From Henriciella sp. (GTDB lineage: Bacteria > Pseudomonadota > Alphaproteobacteria > Caulobacterales > Hyphomonadaceae): a DNA stretch of 35,669 nt. Location: NCBI GenBank assembly GCA_027019605.1, contig JALUWJ010000244.1, forward strand, positions 1-35,669, written 5' to 3'. Positions within the stretch are counted from its first letter, which is position 1; each line of letters opens with the position of its first letter. The notes under the pieces are model-generated. The model had not been told where the DNA came from. It worked only from the letters and a program-made list of their open reading frames with translations, and did no database searches. The translations under genes and the position numbers were made by a program. This document shows positions 22,887 to 34,320 of this stretch, in pieces.

Positions 22887-23795
22887 TTATTGATCCGGGG
22901 CCTCAGATGCGGTCGGCAACAGCTCCGCCGCGAGGTTTTGCAGCATGGCGCCTTGTTCGGTGCCAGCCGGGAAAACTTGCAAGGCGGCATCCAGATCGCG
23001 CTGTGCTTGCGCCATGTCGCCCATGACGACGCGCGCCCGAATCAACCGCAGCCAGCCTTCAATATCATTCGGATCTTGCTCGAGTCGGACAGCCAGCCCC
23101 TCGACCATGCCTTCAATCATCACCGCCTGTTCGTCAGGCGTCATCGCCTCTATCCGAGCCCGCGCTTCCGGATCGATGGCGGGCGCCGCAGCACGTTCCT
23201 GCAACATTTGCAGGACCCGTTGACGCTCGCCGACAATGTTCTCATCGCCCTGTGAGAGATCGATGGCGACATTATACGCGGCGAGCCCATCCTCGACGCG
23301 CCCAAGACGCAAATAAGACCGCGCCAGCAAGACATAACCATCCGCAGGGGGATTAGGATCTTCCGCAAGCCGGTTTTTCAGCTCCACCACCAATCCTTCG
23401 AGCGTATCAGGAAGATTCGCGGCTTGCTGCGCCTGAAATTCGGCGAAGCTGATCGGCTGTAAGCCTGGGCTACCGACTTGCGTGTAAACGCCGACGCCGC
23501 CGATCAGCAGAACCGCTGGAACGATCGCCATCACCGCAGACTTGAACCGGCGCTCAGACGCAATTTTCTCGGGACTATCGAGCAAGTCGAGTATTCGGCG
23601 ATCAAGGGCATCACGCGCTTCTTGAGCGGCATCAGCGCTTAAACGACCCGCCGCCTCATCGAGATCCACATTTGCCCGCTGTTGCTTGGCTTCATCCAAA
23701 GCGCCAGGCGCTTGATCACCCTGTGTCCGCACGAATGGGAAGATCAGATACGCGCAAGTCGCGAGCAGAAGAATGAGGAAGATAAACCAGATCAT
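22887..23795 (-). CDS. ccmI: Cytochrome c maturation protein CcmI (CycH)
   Basis: Apocytochrome c chaperone that delivers the apoprotein to the CcmFH heme ligation complex in the inner membrane and periplasm. The 302 residues have an N-terminal membrane helix (MIWFIFLILLLATCAYLIF), a second helix near residues 86-105 (AVMAIVPAVLLIGGVGVYT) and a TPR-containing C-terminal part (GYVLLARSYLRLGRVEDGLAAY; IEGWLRLIRARVVMGDMAQAQ). The start overlaps the ccmH stop by four bases (ATGA). It is the last gene of the ccmFGHI run. Confidence 0.93.
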   Translation of the reverse strand: MIWFIFLILLLATCAYLIFPFVRTQGDQAPGALDEAKQQRANVDLDEAAGRLSADAAQEARDALDRRILDLLDSPEKIASERRFKSAVMAIVPAVLLIGGVGVYTQVGSPGLQPISFAEFQAQQAANLPDTLEGLVVELKNRLAEDPNPPADGYVLLARSYLRLGRVEDGLAAYNVAIDLSQGDENIVGERQRVLQMLQERAAAPAIDPEARARIEAMTPDEQAVMIEGMVEGLAVRLEQDPNDIEGWLRLIRARVVMGDMAQAQRDLDAALQVFPAGTEQGAMLQNLAAELLPTASEAPDQ

Positions 23796-24259
23796 TTTGC
23801 GCTCGGCGTGTCCTGAAGCGCTTCAGCGACTCGGGCTTTCTCGGCTTCGCTAAGGCCTTGGCGCTGCGGCGTGGCTTGGCCAGCTCGGAGCCGAAGGATG
23901 AACCAGATGAGCCCGATAAAGACCAAGAATACCGGTCCGGTCCAAAGCAAGAGTGTATTCATCTGCAGCGGCGGCGACATCAAGACGTAATCGCCATACC
24001 GCTCCCGCAAATATTCGCGTGCCTCATCATTGGTGTCGCCTGCTTCGACCCGTTTGCGGACCAGATTGCGCATATCTTCCGCCAGCGGCGCATTCGAGTC
24101 ATAGATCGATTGGTTCTGACACACGACACAGCGCAGCGTCTTCGAAATCGCCTCTGTGCGCGCGTCGATATCTTCAGGCGTCTCAGGGCCCGCGTCTTGC
24201 GCCGTGGCGACAGCGAACGCCCATAGAACGGTCAATAGAAGAATGATCAGCCGTTTCAT
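23792..24259 (-). CDS. ccmH: Cytochrome c maturation protein CcmH
   Basis: Membrane-anchored thiol-disulfide protein of 155 residues that keeps apocytochrome CXXCH cysteines reduced for heme attachment by CcmF. It has a signal-like N-terminus (1-20), the diagnostic LRCVVCQNQS with C44 and C47, and a C-terminal membrane helix near 103-124. This is the short CcmH form, with CcmI encoded separately. Both ends overlap neighbours by four bases (ATGA with ccmG upstream and with ccmI downstream), so translation is coupled. Confidence 0.96.
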   Translation of the reverse strand: MKRLIILLLTVLWAFAVATAQDAGPETPEDIDARTEAISKTLRCVVCQNQSIYDSNAPLAEDMRNLVRKRVEAGDTNDEAREYLRERYGDYVLMSPPLQMNTLLLWTGPVFLVFIGLIWFILRLRAGQATPQRQGLSEAEKARVAEALQDTPSAK

Positions 24260-24795
24260 GAAACCGCTTCACTTTCGATCGCCTCGATCACCGGAACAAT
24301 GGTTCGGGTCCAGACTTCAGGCGTTATCGGGCCGATTTGCTTGTATCGAATGCGGCCGGATGCATCGAGGACAAAGGTCTCCGGCGCGCCAGTTACCCCG
24401 ATTTCAATGACCAGCTCACTCTCCGCATCAAAGACAATCGCTTGATAAGGATCGCCATGCTTTGCCAGCCAGGCCAGCGCATCCTCGCGATCATCGCGCC
24501 AGTTGATGCCGACAATCCGCACGGTTTCACTTTGTGAAAGCTGCATCAGAGTTGGATGCTCCTGCAGGCAAGCCACGCACCAGGATCCGAACACATTCAC
24601 CAAAGTGACTTGGCCAACCAGATCTGCCTGGCTGACCATGGCCGTCTCATCGCGCAGTTCGGGCAGTTCGAAGTCCGGCATCTCGCGATCAATCATCTCT
24701 GTCGGAATAACGCTCGGATCACGTGTGAGCCCAATCGCAAGGAAGATCACCAACACGCCAAACAGGCCGACCGGAAGCAATCGTGACAGTTTCAT
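24256..24795 (-). CDS. ccmG: Thiol:disulfide interchange protein CcmG/DsbE
   Basis: Periplasmic thioredoxin-like protein, anchored in the inner membrane, that supplies reductant for cytochrome c maturation. Of 179 residues, the N-terminal anchor is 4-23 and the thioredoxin fold follows with active site W72-C73-V-A-C76, VGINWRDD, and the cis-proline segment GVTGAPETFVLD. ATG 24795 is chosen because the anchor starts there and GGAG lies about 11 bases upstream; the open frame extends 32 codons into ccmF. It starts 4 bases after the ccmF stop. Confidence 0.96.
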   Translation of the reverse strand: MKLSRLLPVGLFGVLVIFLAIGLTRDPSVIPTEMIDREMPDFELPELRDETAMVSQADLVGQVTLVNVFGSWCVACLQEHPTLMQLSQSETVRIVGINWRDDREDALAWLAKHGDPYQAIVFDAESELVIEIGVTGAPETFVLDASGRIRYKQIGPITPEVWTRTIVPVIEAIESEAVS

Positions 24796-24799
24796 CTCT

Positions 24800-26782
24800 C
24801 TACTCCGCTGCCACGGCTTGAGGGGCGGCTGTTTTAGCGCGCCGCGCGGCAAAGGCGTGACGCCGGTCTGCAACCGACACCAAGCCGCCAAACGCCATCA
24901 TCAGGGCGCCAATCCAAATCCAAATCACCAGTGGATGATAGTAGACACTGATCACCCAACCGTCCTCTGGGTTCCCTTCCCCTTTGGCGGCATATAGGAT
25001 TCTCAGCGCGCCAATCTCCATTGCACCTTCGGTCGTATTGTTTCGCTCCACCGGATACATGCGTTGTTCCGGGTTGAGGGTCGCAACGTATTGGCCATTG
25101 CGTTCAATCACCACTTTACCGGTTTCGGCAATGAAGTTTGGCCCCTGGGCGCGATCGACCTCTTCTAAACGGAACTCGTAGCCCGAGACGGATATACGCT
25201 CGCCGAGTTTCAGACGATCAACCTCTTCATCGGCCCAAACACCCATCGCCACGACGCCTACCGTAGTGACTGCCAGGCCGAGATGCGCCAGTGCAAAGCC
25301 ATGGGTCGCGCCTGGCAACAAGGCGAAGCGCTTTGCCAAATTACCCAGCGTGCTCTTGGTCTCCCCAAGGCGGAGCTTGCGGGCATAATTCGCGGCCGTG
25401 CCGACAAGCAACCAGACAGCCAGCCCCATTCCGAGCGCCCCGAAAACAGTCTTGCCAAACACCATGACAGCAAGCGTGATTGGCACAGCCGCCAACGCCA
25501 TGATCAGCAAGGTTTTGCGAATGCGCTGCCAGCTATCGCTGCGCCATTTCATCAAGGGGGCAACCGCCATAAACAGGATCAGCACCGCCATAATCGGTCC
25601 GAAGGTACGCTCAAAATATGGCGGTCCGACCGTGATTTTGTCGCCCGTCATGGCATCAATGACGAGCGGATAAAATGTGCCAAGGAACACCGTCGCGGTC
25701 GAAACAACCAGCAGGATATTGTTCAGCACCAAACCCGCTTCGCGGCTTTCAAACTCGAAACTCGCGCCATGCGCAATCTTGTTGGAACGCAGGGCATAAA
25801 GCGCGAGGGCGCCGCCGGTGGACAGGATCAGCAATCCGAGAATGAACACGCCGCGATCTGGGTCGACAGCAAATGCGTGAACGCTGGTCAAAACGCCGGA
25901 GCGGACAATAAAGGTTCCGACCAGGCTGAGCGAGAATGTGGTAATCGCCAGCAATAAGGTCCAGCGAATGAAGCTGCCGCGCGCCTGAGCCACGAGGGTC
26001 GAATGCAGGAGCGCGGTACCGGCGAGCCACGGCATGAAGCTGACATTCTCAACCGGGTCCCAGAACCACCAGCCGCCCCAGCCGAGTTCGTAATAGGCCC
26101 AGACGCTACCAAGCACGATGCCGATGGTCAGGAAGCTCCATGCCATCAGGACCCAAGGTCGAACCCAGCGCGCCCACATCGCATCGACGCGTCCTTCAAT
26201 CAGGGCCGCAACAGCGAATGAAAACGCAACCGAGAACCCAACATAACCCAAGTACAAAAATGGCGGGTGCAGCGCCAAGCCTGGGTCTTGCAAAAGCGGG
26301 TTGAGGCCGACGCCATTTTCCGGGATTGGCGACAAACGCTCAAACGGGTTCGAGGTGAAAATCAAAAACGCCAAGAAGCCCGTCGTGGTCAGCCCTTGGA
26401 TCGCGATCGCCCGCGCCCGCAGGCCCGATGGCAGCGTCTTTCCGAACCAAACCATGGCCGCGCCAAACAGCGCCATGACCATCACCCAAAGCAGCATGGA
26501 GCCTTCATGATTCCCCCAAGTGCCGCTGAATTTATAGATCATTGGCTTGGTTGTGTGGGAATTTGTGGCGACCAGTTTCACGCTGAAATCGGAGATCATG
26601 AAAGCGTGCGCGAGGAGCACGAATGCGAGAACGCAGAACATTGCCTGCGCGATGGCAGCGCGATCGGCAAAGGCCATTGCGCGGCGATCATTCTGATGCG
26701 CGCCTTGCAGCCCGAGCCATCCTTGCAGAGCGCTGATCAAAAGCGCCAGGATCAGGGCAATCTGTCCAATCTCTGCGAGCAT
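24800..26782 (-). CDS. ccmF: Cytochrome c-type biogenesis protein CcmF
   Basis: Polytopic inner-membrane heme lyase subunit that takes heme from CcmE and ligates it to apocytochrome c. The 660 residues and about 15 membrane helices are normal. The heme-handling WWD domain is at about 235-249 (GWGGWWFWDPVENVS). LHPPFLYLGYVGFSVAF and the N-terminal SHTTKPMIYKFSGTWGNHEGSMLLWV are conserved family blocks. GAGG precedes ATG 26782. It is the first gene of ccmFGHI. The other ccm genes (ABCDE) are not upstream here, and a terminator of the previous gene ends about 15 bases before the start. Confidence 0.97.
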   Translation of the reverse strand: MLAEIGQIALILALLISALQGWLGLQGAHQNDRRAMAFADRAAIAQAMFCVLAFVLLAHAFMISDFSVKLVATNSHTTKPMIYKFSGTWGNHEGSMLLWVMVMALFGAAMVWFGKTLPSGLRARAIAIQGLTTTGFLAFLIFTSNPFERLSPIPENGVGLNPLLQDPGLALHPPFLYLGYVGFSVAFSFAVAALIEGRVDAMWARWVRPWVLMAWSFLTIGIVLGSVWAYYELGWGGWWFWDPVENVSFMPWLAGTALLHSTLVAQARGSFIRWTLLLAITTFSLSLVGTFIVRSGVLTSVHAFAVDPDRGVFILGLLILSTGGALALYALRSNKIAHGASFEFESREAGLVLNNILLVVSTATVFLGTFYPLVIDAMTGDKITVGPPYFERTFGPIMAVLILFMAVAPLMKWRSDSWQRIRKTLLIMALAAVPITLAVMVFGKTVFGALGMGLAVWLLVGTAANYARKLRLGETKSTLGNLAKRFALLPGATHGFALAHLGLAVTTVGVVAMGVWADEEVDRLKLGERISVSGYEFRLEEVDRAQGPNFIAETGKVVIERNGQYVATLNPEQRMYPVERNNTTEGAMEIGALRILYAAKGEGNPEDGWVISVYYHPLVIWIWIGALMMAFGGLVSVADRRHAFAARRAKTAAPQAVAAE

Positions 26783-26889: not shown

Positions 26890-28353
26890 CTACTCCGCCG
26901 CGACTTTCGCAGCCTGCTCATTCAGCACGTGAAGCGGTGGTTCGCAGGCCCAGTCGGCGATCTGCTCCATGTCATAGTGACGGCAGGCTTCCATCAGCAT
27001 GCGCACTTCGGTCCACATGTCGCCATCCACGATTGGCATGAACAGGTCAGCAATATTGTCGATGCCAAGATAGGTGCGGACACCGGCATTTTTCAGTTTC
27101 ACGAACGGTCCGATAGAGTTGTGAAGCGGCCCCTGCATAGGCAGCTGCTTCATCGAGAGTGCCGCGGACGGACAGATGACGATGCCGACATCAGCTTCCT
27201 TACACAGCGCCACAATCCGGTCTTGCTCGCTCTCGTCTTTTGCAGAGACAGAGATCGAGTGAATGCCATAGACCCGGCCTTGCATGCCGTGCTCGATTGT
27301 CTTCAGACAAAGCAGTTCAGTTTCATGCTGGAACGGGTTGTTCTCTTGGTCGACATGGACCTCAACCATCTTGTTGAGCTCTTTCGCCGTCTCCATGACG
27401 ATGTCGAGATGTTTCTCTTCCTGCGGACGATCGCGAGACGGCAAGCCGCCGCAGAAATCTGCCAGTTTACAAGCTTCGATATATTGCTCGCGAGAGGCCT
27501 CGTCCAAGACACCCTCCAGCGGTTGAACCCCGATTTCAAAGCGAATTTTGTCTTTGAAACGCTCTTTCACCTCGACCGCAGCATGGATCGGTTTGAGACC
27601 AATAATGCTGTCAGCATCAACCATGGTCCGGCAATATTGTGAGCCTTGATCGACGACGGTTTGCAGCGCGCGCGAGATCCGCTCGACGAGGTCTTCGTGC
27701 GTGTAGTTCTCTTTCAGGTGGCGGTAGAGTTCCCACTTCTTCTCCATATCGGCAAAGCCGAGCGCCAGGTTTTCAGGAGAGATGAGATAGGCCTTGTCGA
27801 AATGGCCATGATGGTTTGACCAACCACCGCGCTCGCGGACGAGCTCGAGGAAGCGCGTACGCAAATCCCAAGGGCGATCTTCGCTGCCCATTTTGTAGGA
27901 ATAAGTGCCCTCTTGCAGGTCTGAAAGGACCAGCTCGATCGTGTCGCGCGCCACCTGACGGTCGGTATAAAGCGGGATGCCATGCTTGACTGAAAGAGAG
28001 CGAATGCTGGCTGCATCGGAGGCTTCATCATACGTCGTGTCGCCAGTGAGGATGTTCACAACGAAATCAACTTTGCCGTCCTGGATCAAAGTTTTGATAT
28101 TAGGCTCTTCGTCACTGGAAATCTTGCGCGCGGCGATCGACTCAACGCCGTTCTCTGCGAGGAAACGGTGCGTTCCAGGCGTTGCATAAAGACCGACACC
28201 GATATCTGACATCTTGCGGCACGCATCGAGCAAGAACTCTTTGTCTTCCGACGCGCCGGCACTGATGAGCAGCGAGCGCTTTTGGCCGCGCGCCAGCATT
28301 TTCAGGTTGAAGCCGATCAGATCAATTTTTGAATGGGTGTCCAGCGCTGCCAT
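26890..28353 (-). CDS. Fusion protein: MGS-like domain plus cytosine-deaminase-like amidohydrolase
   Basis: The 487-residue product has two parts. Residues about 24-140 match the methylglyoxal-synthase-like domain as it occurs at the C-terminus of CarB (LYATPGTHRFLAENGV, DGKVDFVVNILTG, VKHGIPLYTD), where it binds nucleotide effectors. Residues about 175-475 resemble cytosine-deaminase-type amidohydrolases. The metal-site pattern is H182-x-H184 (HHGHFDKAYL), H333 (VEVHVDQENNP), H365 (YGIHSISV) and D432 (YLGIDNIADLFMP). The position of the deaminase's catalytic glutamate (HCDE) is Q336 here, and other substrate residues also differ. It is therefore probably a metal-dependent hydrolase with a different substrate, perhaps controlled by a phosphorylated ligand through the first domain (inference). 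The ATG at 28353 has AAGGAGAGG upstream; the open frame extends 26 codons further but with no ribosome binding site. It is monocistronic, with a terminator after it. Confidence 0.8.
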   Translation of the reverse strand: MAALDTHSKIDLIGFNLKMLARGQKRSLLISAGASEDKEFLLDACRKMSDIGVGLYATPGTHRFLAENGVESIAARKISSDEEPNIKTLIQDGKVDFVVNILTGDTTYDEASDAASIRSLSVKHGIPLYTDRQVARDTIELVLSDLQEGTYSYKMGSEDRPWDLRTRFLELVRERGGWSNHHGHFDKAYLISPENLALGFADMEKKWELYRHLKENYTHEDLVERISRALQTVVDQGSQYCRTMVDADSIIGLKPIHAAVEVKERFKDKIRFEIGVQPLEGVLDEASREQYIEACKLADFCGGLPSRDRPQEEKHLDIVMETAKELNKMVEVHVDQENNPFQHETELLCLKTIEHGMQGRVYGIHSISVSAKDESEQDRIVALCKEADVGIVICPSAALSMKQLPMQGPLHNSIGPFVKLKNAGVRTYLGIDNIADLFMPIVDGDMWTEVRMLMEACRHYDMEQIADWACEPPLHVLNEQAAKVAAE

Positions 28354-28429
28354 GGTTAGTCCTCTCCTTGAGCCGTGTTCGCCATCGCCGCCGAGCGCGC
28401 AAACGGCCTGAACATGGGTCGATTCCTGC

Positions 28430-30730: not shown

Positions 30731-31636
30731 TTACTCGCCAATCCAGTCGAATTCTGGCTCGTCCCACCAAGGGAAGAAGCTTGGCATGCCGTCAGAGACT
30801 TTGACCGGATAGACCGGCTTACGCTTCTCGAGGAAACTCATCACACCTTCACGCGCATCTTCGGTCTGACCACGAGAATAGATCGCTGCGCTGTCGACGA
30901 TATGTGCTTCCATTGGATGGCTCGCGCCGAGCATGCGCCACATCATGTGACGGGTCAGCGTGGTCGAGACCGCCGCGGTGTTCTCCGCAATCTCATTCGC
31001 CATAGCGCGCGCCACCGTCATTAGATCGGCTTGCGGATGCACAGAATGGACGAGCCCGCCTTTCAGCGCTTCTTCAGCTGGGAAAACACGGCCGGAATAG
31101 CACCACTCCAAAGCCTGCTGGATGCCGACCAAGCGTGGCAAGAACCAGCTGGACGCCGCTTCTGGATTGATCCCGCGGCGGTTAAACACGAATCCAAAAC
31201 GCGCACTATCTGCCGCAATCCGAATATCCATTGGCAGCTGCATCGTGACACCAATGCCAACCGCGGCGCCGTTGATCGCACCGATCACAGGCTTCAAGCT
31301 GTCAAAAATTCGAAGCGTCACACGTCCGCCGCCATCGCGTTGGATGTCGATCTTGTTGGTTCGTCCAGCTTCACCTGTGTCAGCACGCGCCTCATAATCA
31401 AAAGTCTTCGCGCCTTCTGACAAATCAGCGCCGGCGCAAAACGCTCGGTCGCCTGCGCCAGTGACGATAACGGCGCGAATGTCATCATTCGCATCGGTCT
31501 TATCGAACGCATCAAGCAACTCGTACATCATCTTGCCGGTGAAAGCGTTCATCTTCTCCGGACGGTCGAGGGTCAGAATCGCAATCTGTCCCTCTTGTTC
31601 GAGTTTGATTTGTTCGTAATCGCCGAGGCTGGTCAT
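30731..31636 (-). CDS. Enoyl-CoA hydratase/isomerase family protein (crotonase)
   Basis: Crotonase-superfamily protein of 301 residues, longer than the usual 255-265 because of an insertion after the first oxyanion segment (about 75-105) and a C-terminal extension ending in aromatic residues (FFPWWDEPEFDW). The oxyanion segments are DRAFCAGADLS (63-73) and NGAAVGIGVTMQLP (122-135). The catalytic acidic residue is likely E159 (RRGINPEAASSW). The first glutamate of classical hydratases is not present. The acyl-CoA substrate is unknown. AGGAGAG lies upstream of ATG 31636. It is divergent from a GMC oxidoreductase with a 149-base control region. Confidence 0.9.
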   Translation of the reverse strand: MTSLGDYEQIKLEQEGQIAILTLDRPEKMNAFTGKMMYELLDAFDKTDANDDIRAVIVTGAGDRAFCAGADLSEGAKTFDYEARADTGEAGRTNKIDIQRDGGGRVTLRIFDSLKPVIGAINGAAVGIGVTMQLPMDIRIAADSARFGFVFNRRGINPEAASSWFLPRLVGIQQALEWCYSGRVFPAEEALKGGLVHSVHPQADLMTVARAMANEIAENTAAVSTTLTRHMMWRMLGASHPMEAHIVDSAAIYSRGQTEDAREGVMSFLEKRKPVYPVKVSDGMPSFFPWWDEPEFDWIGE

Positions 31637-31678
31637 AGCGCTCTCCTATCTTGGTTCTGGCGACAGGAAGCGGTTTCT

Positions 31679-31776
31679 CTGTGCAATCGTCAACCGTGAC
31701 GCAGCGTTGCCCTTTTGAAACCGTGACGCTTGTGTCATCTTTATAAAATTACCCCGTCCAAAAGTGGATTGCACAG
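31679..31776. repeat. Long-range inverted repeat in a divergent control region
   Basis: CTGTGCAATC (31679-31688) and GATTGCACAG (31767-31776) are perfect 10-base inverted arms 78 bases apart. One lies near the start of each of the two divergent genes (crotonase at 31636, GMC oxidoreductase at 31786). Symmetric placement suggests a pair of binding sites for one regulator acting on both genes, possibly with DNA looping. Confidence 0.4.
31692..31728. repeat. Two direct copies of AACCGTGACGC
   Basis: AACCGTGACG at 31692-31701 and again at 31719-31728 (each followed by C), 27 bases apart. The reverse complement CGTCACGGTT also occurs at 14139-14148 upstream of the other crotonase gene. These are likely regulator-binding sites, inferred from repetition. 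Confidence 0.4.
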
Positions 31777-31785
31777 GAGCGTAGA

Positions 31786-33417
31786 ATGGCTGAGTTTGAC
31801 TATATCGTAGTAGGCGCTGGCAGCGCCGGATGTGTGCTGGCAAACCGGCTGAGCGAGGACGGAAAATCGACTGTCCTGCTGCTTGAAGCTGGCGGTAAAG
31901 ATACGTCGCCAATGATCCACATCCCTGTCGGCTACGCGACCACTTTGAAAGACCCTAAAGTCAACTGGCTCTACGAAACAGAGCCAGATCCCGGCACGCA
32001 TGACCGGGTTCATACCTGGCCGCGCGGTAAGGTCCTCGGCGGGTCATCCTCGATCAATGGCCTTCTTTATATTCGCGGCCAGCGCCAGGATTATGACGGT
32101 TGGGCGCAGCTGGGTCTGCGTGGTTGGTCTTATGATGACCTCCACCCTTACTTTCTGCGCAGTCAGCACCAAGAACGCGATGGCATGGACGGTCACGCAA
32201 AAGGCGGCCCTCTCAATGTCTCAGACGTCACCGAGAAGCACCCTGTTTCAGACGCTGTCATCGAAGCCGGGAAAGCCTTGGGCCTGCCCCACCGCGATGT
32301 GAATGGGGAAGATCAGGAAGGCGTCGCTTACTATCAGCTTACCGTTAAAAATGGTCGTCGTTGCAGCGCCGCTGTCGCCTATCTTAACCCGGCCAAAAAG
32401 CGACAAAACTTGCAGATCGAAACCAAGGCGCTCGCAGCCCGAGTTCTGTTTGAAGGAAAGCGCGCGGTTGGCGTGGAGTATACCCAAGGCGGCCAAACAA
32501 AGACCGCGAAAGCACGTGGTGAGGTCATTCTGGCGGGCGGCGCGATCAACAGCCCACAGCTGCTGGAACTGTCAGGTATCGGTCATCCCGACCTGTTAAA
32601 CGCGCAAGGGATCGAAACCGTCTCGGCGCTGCCGGGTGTTGGCGAAAACCTGCAGGATCATTTCGTCATCGGCAATCGCTACCGAATGAAATCTGGCAGT
32701 CCGTCTGTGAACCAACAGTCGCGCGGTTTGGCGATGATTGGTGAAGTGTTCAAATACCTCATTCAACGCAAAGGCCTTCTGACCTTGTCGGCGGCGCATG
32801 TGGCGGCGTTTATCAAAACCCGTCCAGAGCTCGCAACGCCAGATGTTCAGTATCATATTTTGCCAGCCACCATGGACCTGCAGAAAATGAGCGAGACGGG
32901 TGATATGGAACTGGAAAAACAACCTGGTCTAACAATTGCGCCTTGCCAATTGCGCCCAGAGAGCCGCGGCAGCGTACATATCAAATCCGCCAAGCATGAT
33001 GCCCACCCGGCCATTCGCCCAAATTATTTGTACGATCCACTTGATCAACAGACGGCCGTTGCAGGTCTGCGCTGGGCCCGTGACTTGGCAGCGCAACCGG
33101 CACTCGCGCGTTATATCGAGCACGAATTGGAGCCAGGCGAGGCTCTGCAATCAGATGACGAATTGCTGGAATATGCCCGCGAAACCGGCGGCACAATCTA
33201 TCACCCAGTTGGCACCTGCAAGATGGGACCTGATGGTGACATGATGGCAGTTGTCGATGACCAATTGCGTGTGCGCGGGGTTGAAGGTCTGCGTGTCGTT
33301 GATGCCTCGGTGATGCCACGCCTGGTTAGCGGCAACACCAATGCACCAACTATTGCGATTGCAGAAAAAGCGAGCGATATGATCCGTTCAGCTGCGAGAG
33401 AAAGCATCACTGCGTAA
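31786..33417 (+). CDS. GMC-family FAD oxidoreductase (choline dehydrogenase-like)
   Basis: FAD-dependent oxidation of an alcohol. The 543 residues have the ADP-binding motif [15 protein letters not shown] (glycines 10, 12, 15) and the GMC signatures [14 protein letters not shown] and [15 protein letters not shown]. The catalytic pair is H473 (HPVGTCKMG) and N517 ([19 protein letters not shown]). The pattern fits alcohol dehydrogenases of the AlkJ/choline dehydrogenase group, which act on hydrophobic or polar primary alcohols; the substrate is not determined. GGAG lies about 8 bases before ATG. A sterol-desaturase-family gene follows after 3 bases, so the two form an operon. Confidence 0.95.
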
Positions 33418-33420
33418 CCC

Positions 33421-34320
33421 ATGCCTGGCGACATCCCTATCGAAGCGCTCTTCGCGCCCTTCTTCGTTCTCTCTGTCGCGATTGAGTGGTGGTCGGTAAA
33501 AACCGGTCGCGCCAACGGGCGTTACGAGACCGCCGACGCGATCACCAGCATGGCGATGGGGCTCGGCAATGCGATTGTGGGAACACTTACCGGCGTCGCC
33601 GCGATTTGGATCATGATGCTGGTTTGGCCCTACCGCGTAATGACCATGCCGAACACATGGTGGAGCTTCCTGATTGTGTTTGTGCTGTATGATTTCGTCT
33701 ACTACTGGAAGCATCGGTTCGCGCATCGCATCCGCTGGTTCTGGATGGAGCACGTCACACATCATTCCAGCAAGCACTACAATCTAACGACCGCATTGCG
33801 GCAGCCTTGGTTCGGCCCATTTACGGGGCTGATTGTACTCGGATGGTCGCTTGTCCTGCTTGGATTTCACCCTGCCATGATTGGCCTCGCGGGTGGCATC
33901 AACCTCGTCTATCAATTCTGGATCCACACAGAAGCTGTCGATAAATGTCCGCGTTGGTTTGAGGCGATTTTCAACACGCCGAGCCATCACCGCGTTCATC
34001 ATGCAACGAACCCGCGATATTTGGATGCCAATTATGCTGGCGTCTTTATCACCTGGGACAAGATGTTCGGCTCTTTCACTCCCGAGCGCGAAGACGACAA
34101 GCCCAATTATGGCATCGTCAAACCACTCAACACCTACAATCCGATTGTCGTCGCCTATCATGAATTCGTAGGCCTGATGAAAGATTGCTGGTCGGATGGG
34201 CTGCGTCCACTGACCTGGCTGAAGCGCGCCGCGAATGCGCCGGGCTGGAGCCCTGATGGCGCGCACAATCGCACCGAAGAAATTCGGGCGCGTTGGAAAG
34301 CGGAAAGCGAGTCGTCTTAG
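33421..34320 (+). CDS. Sterol desaturase / fatty acid hydroxylase family protein
   Basis: Membrane di-iron oxygenase of 299 residues. The three histidine clusters are HRFAH (98-102), HVTHH (111-115) and HHRVHH (189-194), with H169 (FWIHTE) as a further likely ligand. There are several membrane helices (about 8-23, 42-70, 80-95, 133-165). The family hydroxylates or desaturates lipids, sterols or carotenoids. It starts 3 bases after the GMC oxidoreductase stop. One plausible scheme is hydroxylation here and oxidation of the alcohol by the GMC enzyme (inference). Its stop codon overlaps the stop of the convergent Lrp gene. Confidence 0.93.
   Translation: MPGDIPIEALFAPFFVLSVAIEWWSVKTGRANGRYETADAITSMAMGLGNAIVGTLTGVAAIWIMMLVWPYRVMTMPNTWWSFLIVFVLYDFVYYWKHRFAHRIRWFWMEHVTHHSSKHYNLTTALRQPWFGPFTGLIVLGWSLVLLGFHPAMIGLAGGINLVYQFWIHTEAVDKCPRWFEAIFNTPSHHRVHHATNPRYLDANYAGVFITWDKMFGSFTPEREDDKPNYGIVKPLNTYNPIVVAYHEFVGLMKDCWSDGLRPLTWLKRAANAPGWSPDGAHNRTEEIRARWKAESESS

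Follow-up and report, generated by a model that had tools for sequence, protein, structure and literature searches.

Fusion of a CarB-type MGS domain with a PRK06886-family amidohydrolase in Henriciella: a putative effector-controlled enzyme

A single gene of Henriciella sp. encodes a CarB-type MGS domain at the amino-terminal end, a variable linker and an amidohydrolase domain of the PRK06886 family at the C-terminal end. The two-domain fusion is real, on evidence far beyond chance. What might such a protein do? Conserved positions in both halves make it moderately probable that the product is an amidohydrolase under the control of an effector, with the MGS domain binding a phosphorylated ligand. 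The gene lies in a stretch of 35,669 nucleotides, here called the window; the features of the gene are collected in Table 1.

The fusion gene and its two domains

The minus-strand reading gives 487 amino acids and a stop codon, whereas the plus-strand reading is interrupted by stops. A sequence-only reading of this DNA had proposed an MGS-like segment (residues 24-140) and a cytosine-deaminase-type hydrolase (residues 175-475) in a single open frame with one ribosome binding site. The frame is as described, and the fusion is conserved in two classes; a Shine-Dalgarno-like sequence precedes the ATG, and both domain calls are borne out by Pfam, NCBIfam, phmmer and the fold matches of an AlphaFold model.

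Table 1. Features of the fusion gene, with window coordinates
Feature	Coordinates	Strand	Evidence or conservation
MGS-amidohydrolase fusion gene, 487 aa + stop codon	26890..28353	-	ORF
Shine-Dalgarno-like AAGGAGAGG	28361..28369	-	7 nt to ATG
MGS (CarB-type) domain, residues about 24-145	27919..28284	-	PF02142, CPS chains, 2yvq/1jdb fold
Variable linker, residues 146-163	27865..27918	-	lowest aa identity of the three segments (7/7 pairs); pLDDT <50 at 151-162
Amidohydrolase domain, PRK06886 family, residues 164-476	26926..27864	-	NF005365, E 6.7e-154
K38, equivalent of CarB K954	28240..28242	-	24/24 fused rows
T58-P-G-T61, equivalent of CarB T974/T977	28171..28182	-	T58, G60, T61 in 24/24 fused rows
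K77, equivalent of CarB K993	28123..28125	-	24/24 fused rows
N100, equivalent of CarB N1015	28054..28056	-	24/24 fused rows
HxH metal ligands H182, H184	27802..27810	-	24/24 fused and 32/32 standalone rows
Metal ligand H333 (CodA H214)	27355..27357	-	56/56 rows
Q336, at the cytosine deaminase Glu217 position	27346..27348	-	Q in 24/24 fused and 32/32 standalone rows; E in CodA and three CDA-like outgroup rows
H365 (CodA H246, AtzC H249), proposed proton shuttle	27259..27261	-	56/56 rows
Metal ligand D432 (CodA D313)	27058..27060	-	56/56 rows

HMM searches, which the earlier reading had suggested for each half, assign PF02142 (MGS) to residues 41-130 (E 2e-17; 63.5 bits, above the cut-off of 24.1). 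In the C-terminal half they assign Amidohydro_1 to residues 208-476 (E 3.3e-7; 30.3 bits, cut-off 25) and NCBIfam NF005365 (PRK06886) to the whole domain (511.8 bits, cut-off 340). The NCBIfam cytosine deaminase models stay below their cut-offs (84.2 vs 438, 76.2 vs 403 and 73.9 vs 483 bits). Among solved chains, phmmer places AtzC and cytosine deaminase within residues 177-467 and CPS within 26-142. The protein as a whole does not fall into a characterised enzyme family: the NCBIfam model that it matches bears the name 'hypothetical protein' and spans the C-terminal part only. Among the titles and abstract starts listed in the literature matches, no paper was found on a fusion of MGS with an amidohydrolase or cytosine deaminase or on PRK06886, nor was any found on Pasteurellaceae amidohydrolase together with cytosine deaminase.

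The AlphaFold model, built from 14 aligned fused proteins, is of moderate confidence (mean pLDDT 70.8, pTM 0.69). The pLDDT is 81-93 by blocks across residues 31-100 and below 50 in the loops 188-203, 396-413 and 434-451. Structure prediction had also been suggested as a check, and the N-terminal part matches the CPS MGS fold, both in human CPS1 (2yvq; TMt 0.75, rmsd 5.0 A) and in E. coli CPS (1jdb; 120 columns at 2.4 A). The best structural match of the model is AtzC, the N-isopropylammelide isopropylaminohydrolase (2qt3, E 3.6e-13), and cytosine deaminases (CodA barrel) come next. AtzC is thus the best solved relative of the barrel, but it is only about 25% identical and its 403 residues leave no room for an MGS domain. 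CodA is not known to have an MGS domain. The type III CRISPR-associated deaminase 8z3k matches the model weakly as a whole (rmsd 24.5 A over 632 columns); we take it to be a deaminase of the same superfamily that carries a ligand-gated sensor, an analogue of the fusion in the way it works, with no homology of the sensors claimed.

Active site and effector pocket

The hydrolase parts of 24 fused and 32 standalone proteins were aligned with E. coli CodA, whose record numbering is that of the literature plus one. The fold and the H-x-H, H, H and D positions are those of CodA, and the metal centre is probably mononuclear. Glu217 and Gln156 have roles in the CodA active site. In all 56 rows Glu217 is replaced by Gln, Gln156 by Leu (L279), Phe154 by Gln and Asp314 by Asn; Trp319 is Phe in the fused rows (Phe438 in the window protein) and Met in the standalone rows. 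Glu217, Gln156 and Phe154 are retained in three more distant relatives whose length is that of an ordinary CDA, but this outgroup also has Phe at Trp319 (3/3) and Asn at Asp314 (2/3). The latter two changes are therefore not diagnostic, and only those at Glu217, Gln156 and Phe154 mark the PRK06886 family. A further distant relative, L030, has Gln at the Glu217 position but Pro at Gln156, and the motif of a Gemmobacter relative is HVDQ. Only 18 residues of the hydrolase proper precede HxH and 55 follow the metal Asp, where CodA has 61 and 113, and so the CodA-type flanking parts are missing. In CodA, the flanks of the barrel form a second small domain.

Can a member of the superfamily work without this Glu? 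AtzC resembles the fusion in that it has Asn for CodA Asp314, keeps the catalytic His and does not keep Glu217; it differs in having Gln160 and Trp309 where the fusion has Leu279 and Phe438. The excerpted text of the AtzC structure paper equates CodA Glu217 with AtzC His219 and Asp314 with Asn304, reports that His249Ala abolishes activity, judges the side-chain NH2 of Gln160 (CodA Gln156) not crucial, and has the enzyme, which is without CodA Glu217, active on an aminotriazine, a ring-substituted triazine (PMC4577212). The superfamily can thus hydrolyse a ring-substituted triazine without Glu217. The published equivalence of Glu217 and His219 is a spatial one, as in the phmmer alignment the Asp after the second His of the AtzC HIHD stretch lies against Q336.

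For the MGS half, the fused proteins were aligned with E. coli CarB, with a CarB-like ORF of the same genome (33% identical) and with E. coli MgsA; the 24 fused rows are related to each other and hence not independent. The likeness to the CarB C-terminal MGS domain lies in the fold and in the effector-site residues: equivalents of CarB K954, T974, G976, T977, K993, N1015, G1019 and D1025 are kept in 24/24 fused rows. The domain of the fusion differs in that it stands at the N-terminus of another enzyme, has an insert of three residues (near residues 110-112) and is changed at CarB T1017 (Leu or Met) and R1020 (Asp, Glu or Asn), and because of these last two changes the effector may be neither UMP nor IMP. 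All fused rows also share Y108, D109, E110 and D131; E110 sits in the insert and D131 at CarB T1043, and these residues may face the ligand or the barrel.

We take K954, T974 and N1015 to be contacts of the CarB pocket. For E. coli CPSase, the excerpted text of PMC6245113 describes Thr977 and Lys993 as crucial both for the binding of UMP and for inhibition by it. In CPS1, a Thr pair (TxxT) lines the N-acetylglutamate site together with Trp1410, Asn1437 and others, according to an excerpt of PMC4655335. The TxxT pair alone is therefore no proof of phosphate binding. CPS1 presumably has Trp1410 at the position of fusion K77, and the invariant K77 would favour a phosphate ligand. With the CarB pocket residues invariant in every fused row, a phosphorylated effector is the best guess for the MGS domain, and the same residues lend plausibility to the allosteric control suggested in the sequence-only reading.

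Judged by its residues, the MGS half resembles CarB and not methylglyoxal synthase. The CarB model scores 43.9 bits on the fusion protein and the PurH model 11.8 bits. The Asp of GGDQQ and the Asp of FFWD are catalytic residues of MgsA. Among the rows listed in the alignment, the former stands against E or Q and the FFWD segment against NILT (NIMT in one row). A methylglyoxal synthase enzyme was rejected on these two positions.

Distribution, history and gene neighbourhoods

GTDB genomes were scanned with the protein itself, a search of a wider collection for close relatives; the whole-genome family searches were of Pseudomonadota. The scan gave 14 distinct loci, all alphaproteobacterial by title and 69-98% identical (Henriciella, Hyphomonas, Hyphomonadaceae, Alphaproteobacterium and Euryhalocaulis), of which 13 are intact. 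The copy in a Euryhalocaulis MAG (L016:7983-9422) loses the frame after about residue 309, up to which it is intact; this is either an assembly error or a recent pseudogene. Searches with the PRK06886 model (E <= 1e-40, in sampled genome sets that overlap) found matches in 6/398 genomes of the phylum, 5/337 of the window's class (two above the curated cut-off), 7/150 of its order, 8/61 of its family and 6/15 of its genus; with six of 15 same-genus genomes carrying it, the fusion gene is accessory. In another class, matches were found in 7/42 genomes of the order of genome G558, in the fused form, and in 56/61 of the family of genome G160, where the standalone form is near-universal; the class of G160 as sampled gave 3/368, two above the cut-off. 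By gene content the G160 family looks Pasteurellaceae-like, the G558 order Beggiatoa-like and the class Gammaproteobacteria. The 14 named control genomes gave no PRK06886 match. A search with the fused alignment (E <= 1e-30) returned 4/349 phylum genomes, the window's own and three with standalone proteins.

The proteins of the Beggiatoa-like order are open frames of 475-511 aa that align with the window protein from residue 8-25 onward, and the two scanned by Pfam both have MGS and Amidohydro_1. Other proteins with the same two-domain order, for which a search had been proposed, thus occur in Alphaproteobacteria and in this order. The standalone proteins (NF005365, about 328 aa) are 32-36% identical to the window protein. 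Their open frames span 328-385 aa in the 56 matches. Loci are available for 32 of these, and the alignment starts at residue 164 in 28 of them and at residues 126, 129, 151 and 174 in the other four; Pfam finds no MGS domain in the one protein scanned. They share the HVDQ motif and the Leu for Gln156 in 32/32 rows. We take HI0842 to be the PRK06886 member of H. influenzae. The excerpted text of a computational annotation of that species calls HI0842 'N-isopropylammelide isopropyl amidohydrolase' (PMC3877243). Some standalone genes contain stops: one divides the G1222 gene (L116:6965-7951) into two parts, and three further matches without loci are flagged with TAG or TAA.

Two other origins of the gene were rejected. 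An ORF-fusion artefact does not agree with the recurrence of the intact fusion in separate genomes, including the single-contig G065. As for a phage or plasmid gene, 0/8 phage and 0/575 plasmid records hold 80% of the query, and viral contigs are without a relative.

For the alignments, L016 was left out (frame broken), as were L018, L019, L020, L022, L023 and L040 as repeats, recognised by identity, position or the length of the contig, L082-L084 also being repeats; the standalone alignment has 32 of the 56 matches, including L074, whose match carries one in-frame TAG. A tree built on the hydrolase part with 36 rows groups the 17 fused rows in a single clade (97/97) and 13 standalone rows in a second (100/100). 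The two clades are joined weakly (89/69), with the standalone L030 and L081 and four CDA-like rows outside; long branches join the groups, and the program cautions that the joins could be spurious. A single fusion event is the most economical explanation of these sequences. Rough dN/dS values, with synonymous change saturated, are 0.02-0.09 for the MGS half (computable in 3/7 pairs) and 0.008-0.023 for the hydrolase half (5/7 pairs), from seven of the 13 relatives in the alignment. In 7/7 pairs the hydrolase half has the higher amino acid identity of the two.

Do the neighbouring genes offer a hint of function? No gene was found to adjoin the PRK06886 gene in all lineages (10 alphaproteobacterial, seven G558-order and 30 standalone loci). 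Next to the alphaproteobacterial fusions two neighbours, an enoyl-CoA-hydratase-like gene and a coiled-coil gene (by eye), recur in 6/10 loci. In the window, ORFs resembling by eye a cytochrome c maturation set, an enoyl-CoA hydratase, a GMC oxidoreductase and a fatty-acid hydroxylase lie at 22887-26782 (minus strand) and 30731-34320. The neighbours of the G558-order fusions vary over the seven loci, where some of the fusion genes are near contig ends and only one side is visible. An RNase T gene lies 3' of the fusion in two of these, at L038:10648-11274 (10 bp after; confirmed by profile, 306.8 bits) and L088:2619-3263 (about 550 bp). Another two have a DusB gene at a distance of two genes, at L086:4835-5806 (confirmed by profile, 412 bits) and L087:2959-3930.

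The standalone neighbourhoods, 30 loci from the 56 matches in the Pasteurellaceae-like family, have other recurrent genes. In 7/30 loci (L034:9507-11897, L094-L096, L108, L112 and L116) the standalone gene and a thiB-type gene for thiamine transport are divergently arranged, two of these thiB genes being confirmed by NCBIfam (416 and 428.8 bits). A pyrE-type gene is 1.5-3.4 kb away in 9/30 loci (one confirmed, 221.1 bits), a dus-like gene within 1.2 kb in 8/30, and a YejM-like gene recurs in 12/30. Neither thiB nor pyrE recurs beside the fusion genes in the 10 alphaproteobacterial and seven G558-order loci. The thiB and pyrE context is weak evidence, as these are shared synteny blocks of related genera; if it favours any chemistry, it is that of pyrimidines or thiamine, and the thiB adjacency is a lead to thiamine-pyrimidine salvage. 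A third, more distant group of standalone PRK06886-like genes (L081:5953-7095 and L039:4052-5149; 130.6 and 153.5 bits, below the PRK06886 cut-off) has the motif HVDQ/HTDQ-x-NHP. On a Gemmobacter plasmid its neighbour is an AMP-binding ligase gene, and in genome G585 a gene with weak likeness to P450, with genes for YicC and RNase PH nearby.

Possible function and significance

In the proposed mechanism a phosphorylated metabolite, with nucleoside monophosphates (UMP or IMP, for example) the likeliest candidates, would bind to the MGS domain, and binding would raise or lower hydrolysis at the barrel. There a metal-bound water, aided by H365, would attack a C-N bond of a small substrate. The substrate would probably be cyclic or ring-substituted, with no need for the cytosine deaminase Glu217, and is for that reason probably not cytosine itself; cytosine appears unlikely, and another pyrimidine-like compound possible. 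The sequence-only suggestion of a deaminase of nucleobase-like compounds is weakened by the Glu217 to Gln and Gln156 to Leu changes in all rows. It retains some ground in the action of AtzC on an aminotriazine without the Glu, and in the thiB- and pyrE-like genes near some standalone relatives.

How else might the domains be read? The MGS half might be a structural or oligomerisation module, which replaces missing N-terminal parts of the fold and senses a non-phosphate ligand or nothing. The short stretches of the hydrolase on either side of its metal ligands, shorter than those of CodA, would fit this, as would the lower identity of the MGS half in every pair. However, the standalone proteins are also without the flanking parts and, by their lengths and the one scanned, without MGS, so that MGS is not needed for the barrel; the pocket residues are moreover invariant in all fused rows, and the module reading is unlikely. 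It is decidedly unlikely that the enzyme deaminates or hydrolyses a true nucleobase or another pyrimidine (cytosine, isocytosine, a thiamine-type aminopyrimidine) under feedback control by a nucleotide. This reading does have the closest solved relatives, AtzC and the cytosine deaminases, on its side, together with a CarB-like pocket that fits end-product control, the thiB- and pyrE-type settings of standalone genes and, from the excerpt of PMC4577212, a Gln160 NH2 that is not crucial in AtzC, by which the loss of Gln156 is no proof. Against these stand the replacement of Glu217, Gln156 and Phe154 in 56/56 rows, when three CDA-like outgroup rows keep them, and the nature of the thiB and pyrE settings, which are synteny blocks of related genera and do not recur beside the fusions.

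Two further readings concern catalysis. MGS-fold enzymes with activity exist (MgsA, PurH), and a catalytic MGS half, similar to methylglyoxal synthase or IMP cyclohydrolase, could pass its product to the hydrolase; but with E or Q against the GGDQQ Asp and NILT or NIMT against FFWD among the rows listed, and with CarB outscoring PurH, such a bifunctional enzyme is very improbable. The replacement of Glu217 throughout the family could also be taken as a sign of a pseudoenzyme, a metal-binding sensor that has given up catalysis with the Glu. This is scarcely credible given that the metal ligands and H365 are invariant, the barrel is conserved and AtzC, by the excerpt of PMC4577212, is active with the same Glu missing. 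An effector-controlled PRK06886-family amidohydrolase is the reading preferred here.

Tentatively, and with somewhat less assurance than effector control itself, the fusions might represent a class of allosterically gated amidohydrolases, in which a CarB-type MGS domain is a transplanted switch outside CPS, the cytosine deaminase mechanism is altered from Glu to Gln and the substrate is new to the superfamily; the standalone form would then be an unrecognised core enzyme of the Pasteurellaceae-like family, perhaps in thiamine or pyrimidine salvage. With an effector domain of the CPS type on a different enzyme, it would become possible to study how the effector is recognised and the signal passed on without the very large CPS, and the identity of the effector could point to the substrate. 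The fusion further draws attention to a hydrolase family that is uncharacterised and consistently changed at a key active-site position. The standalone form occurs in 56 of the 61 sampled Pasteurellaceae-like genomes, and yet the NCBIfam model of the family carries the name 'hypothetical protein'.
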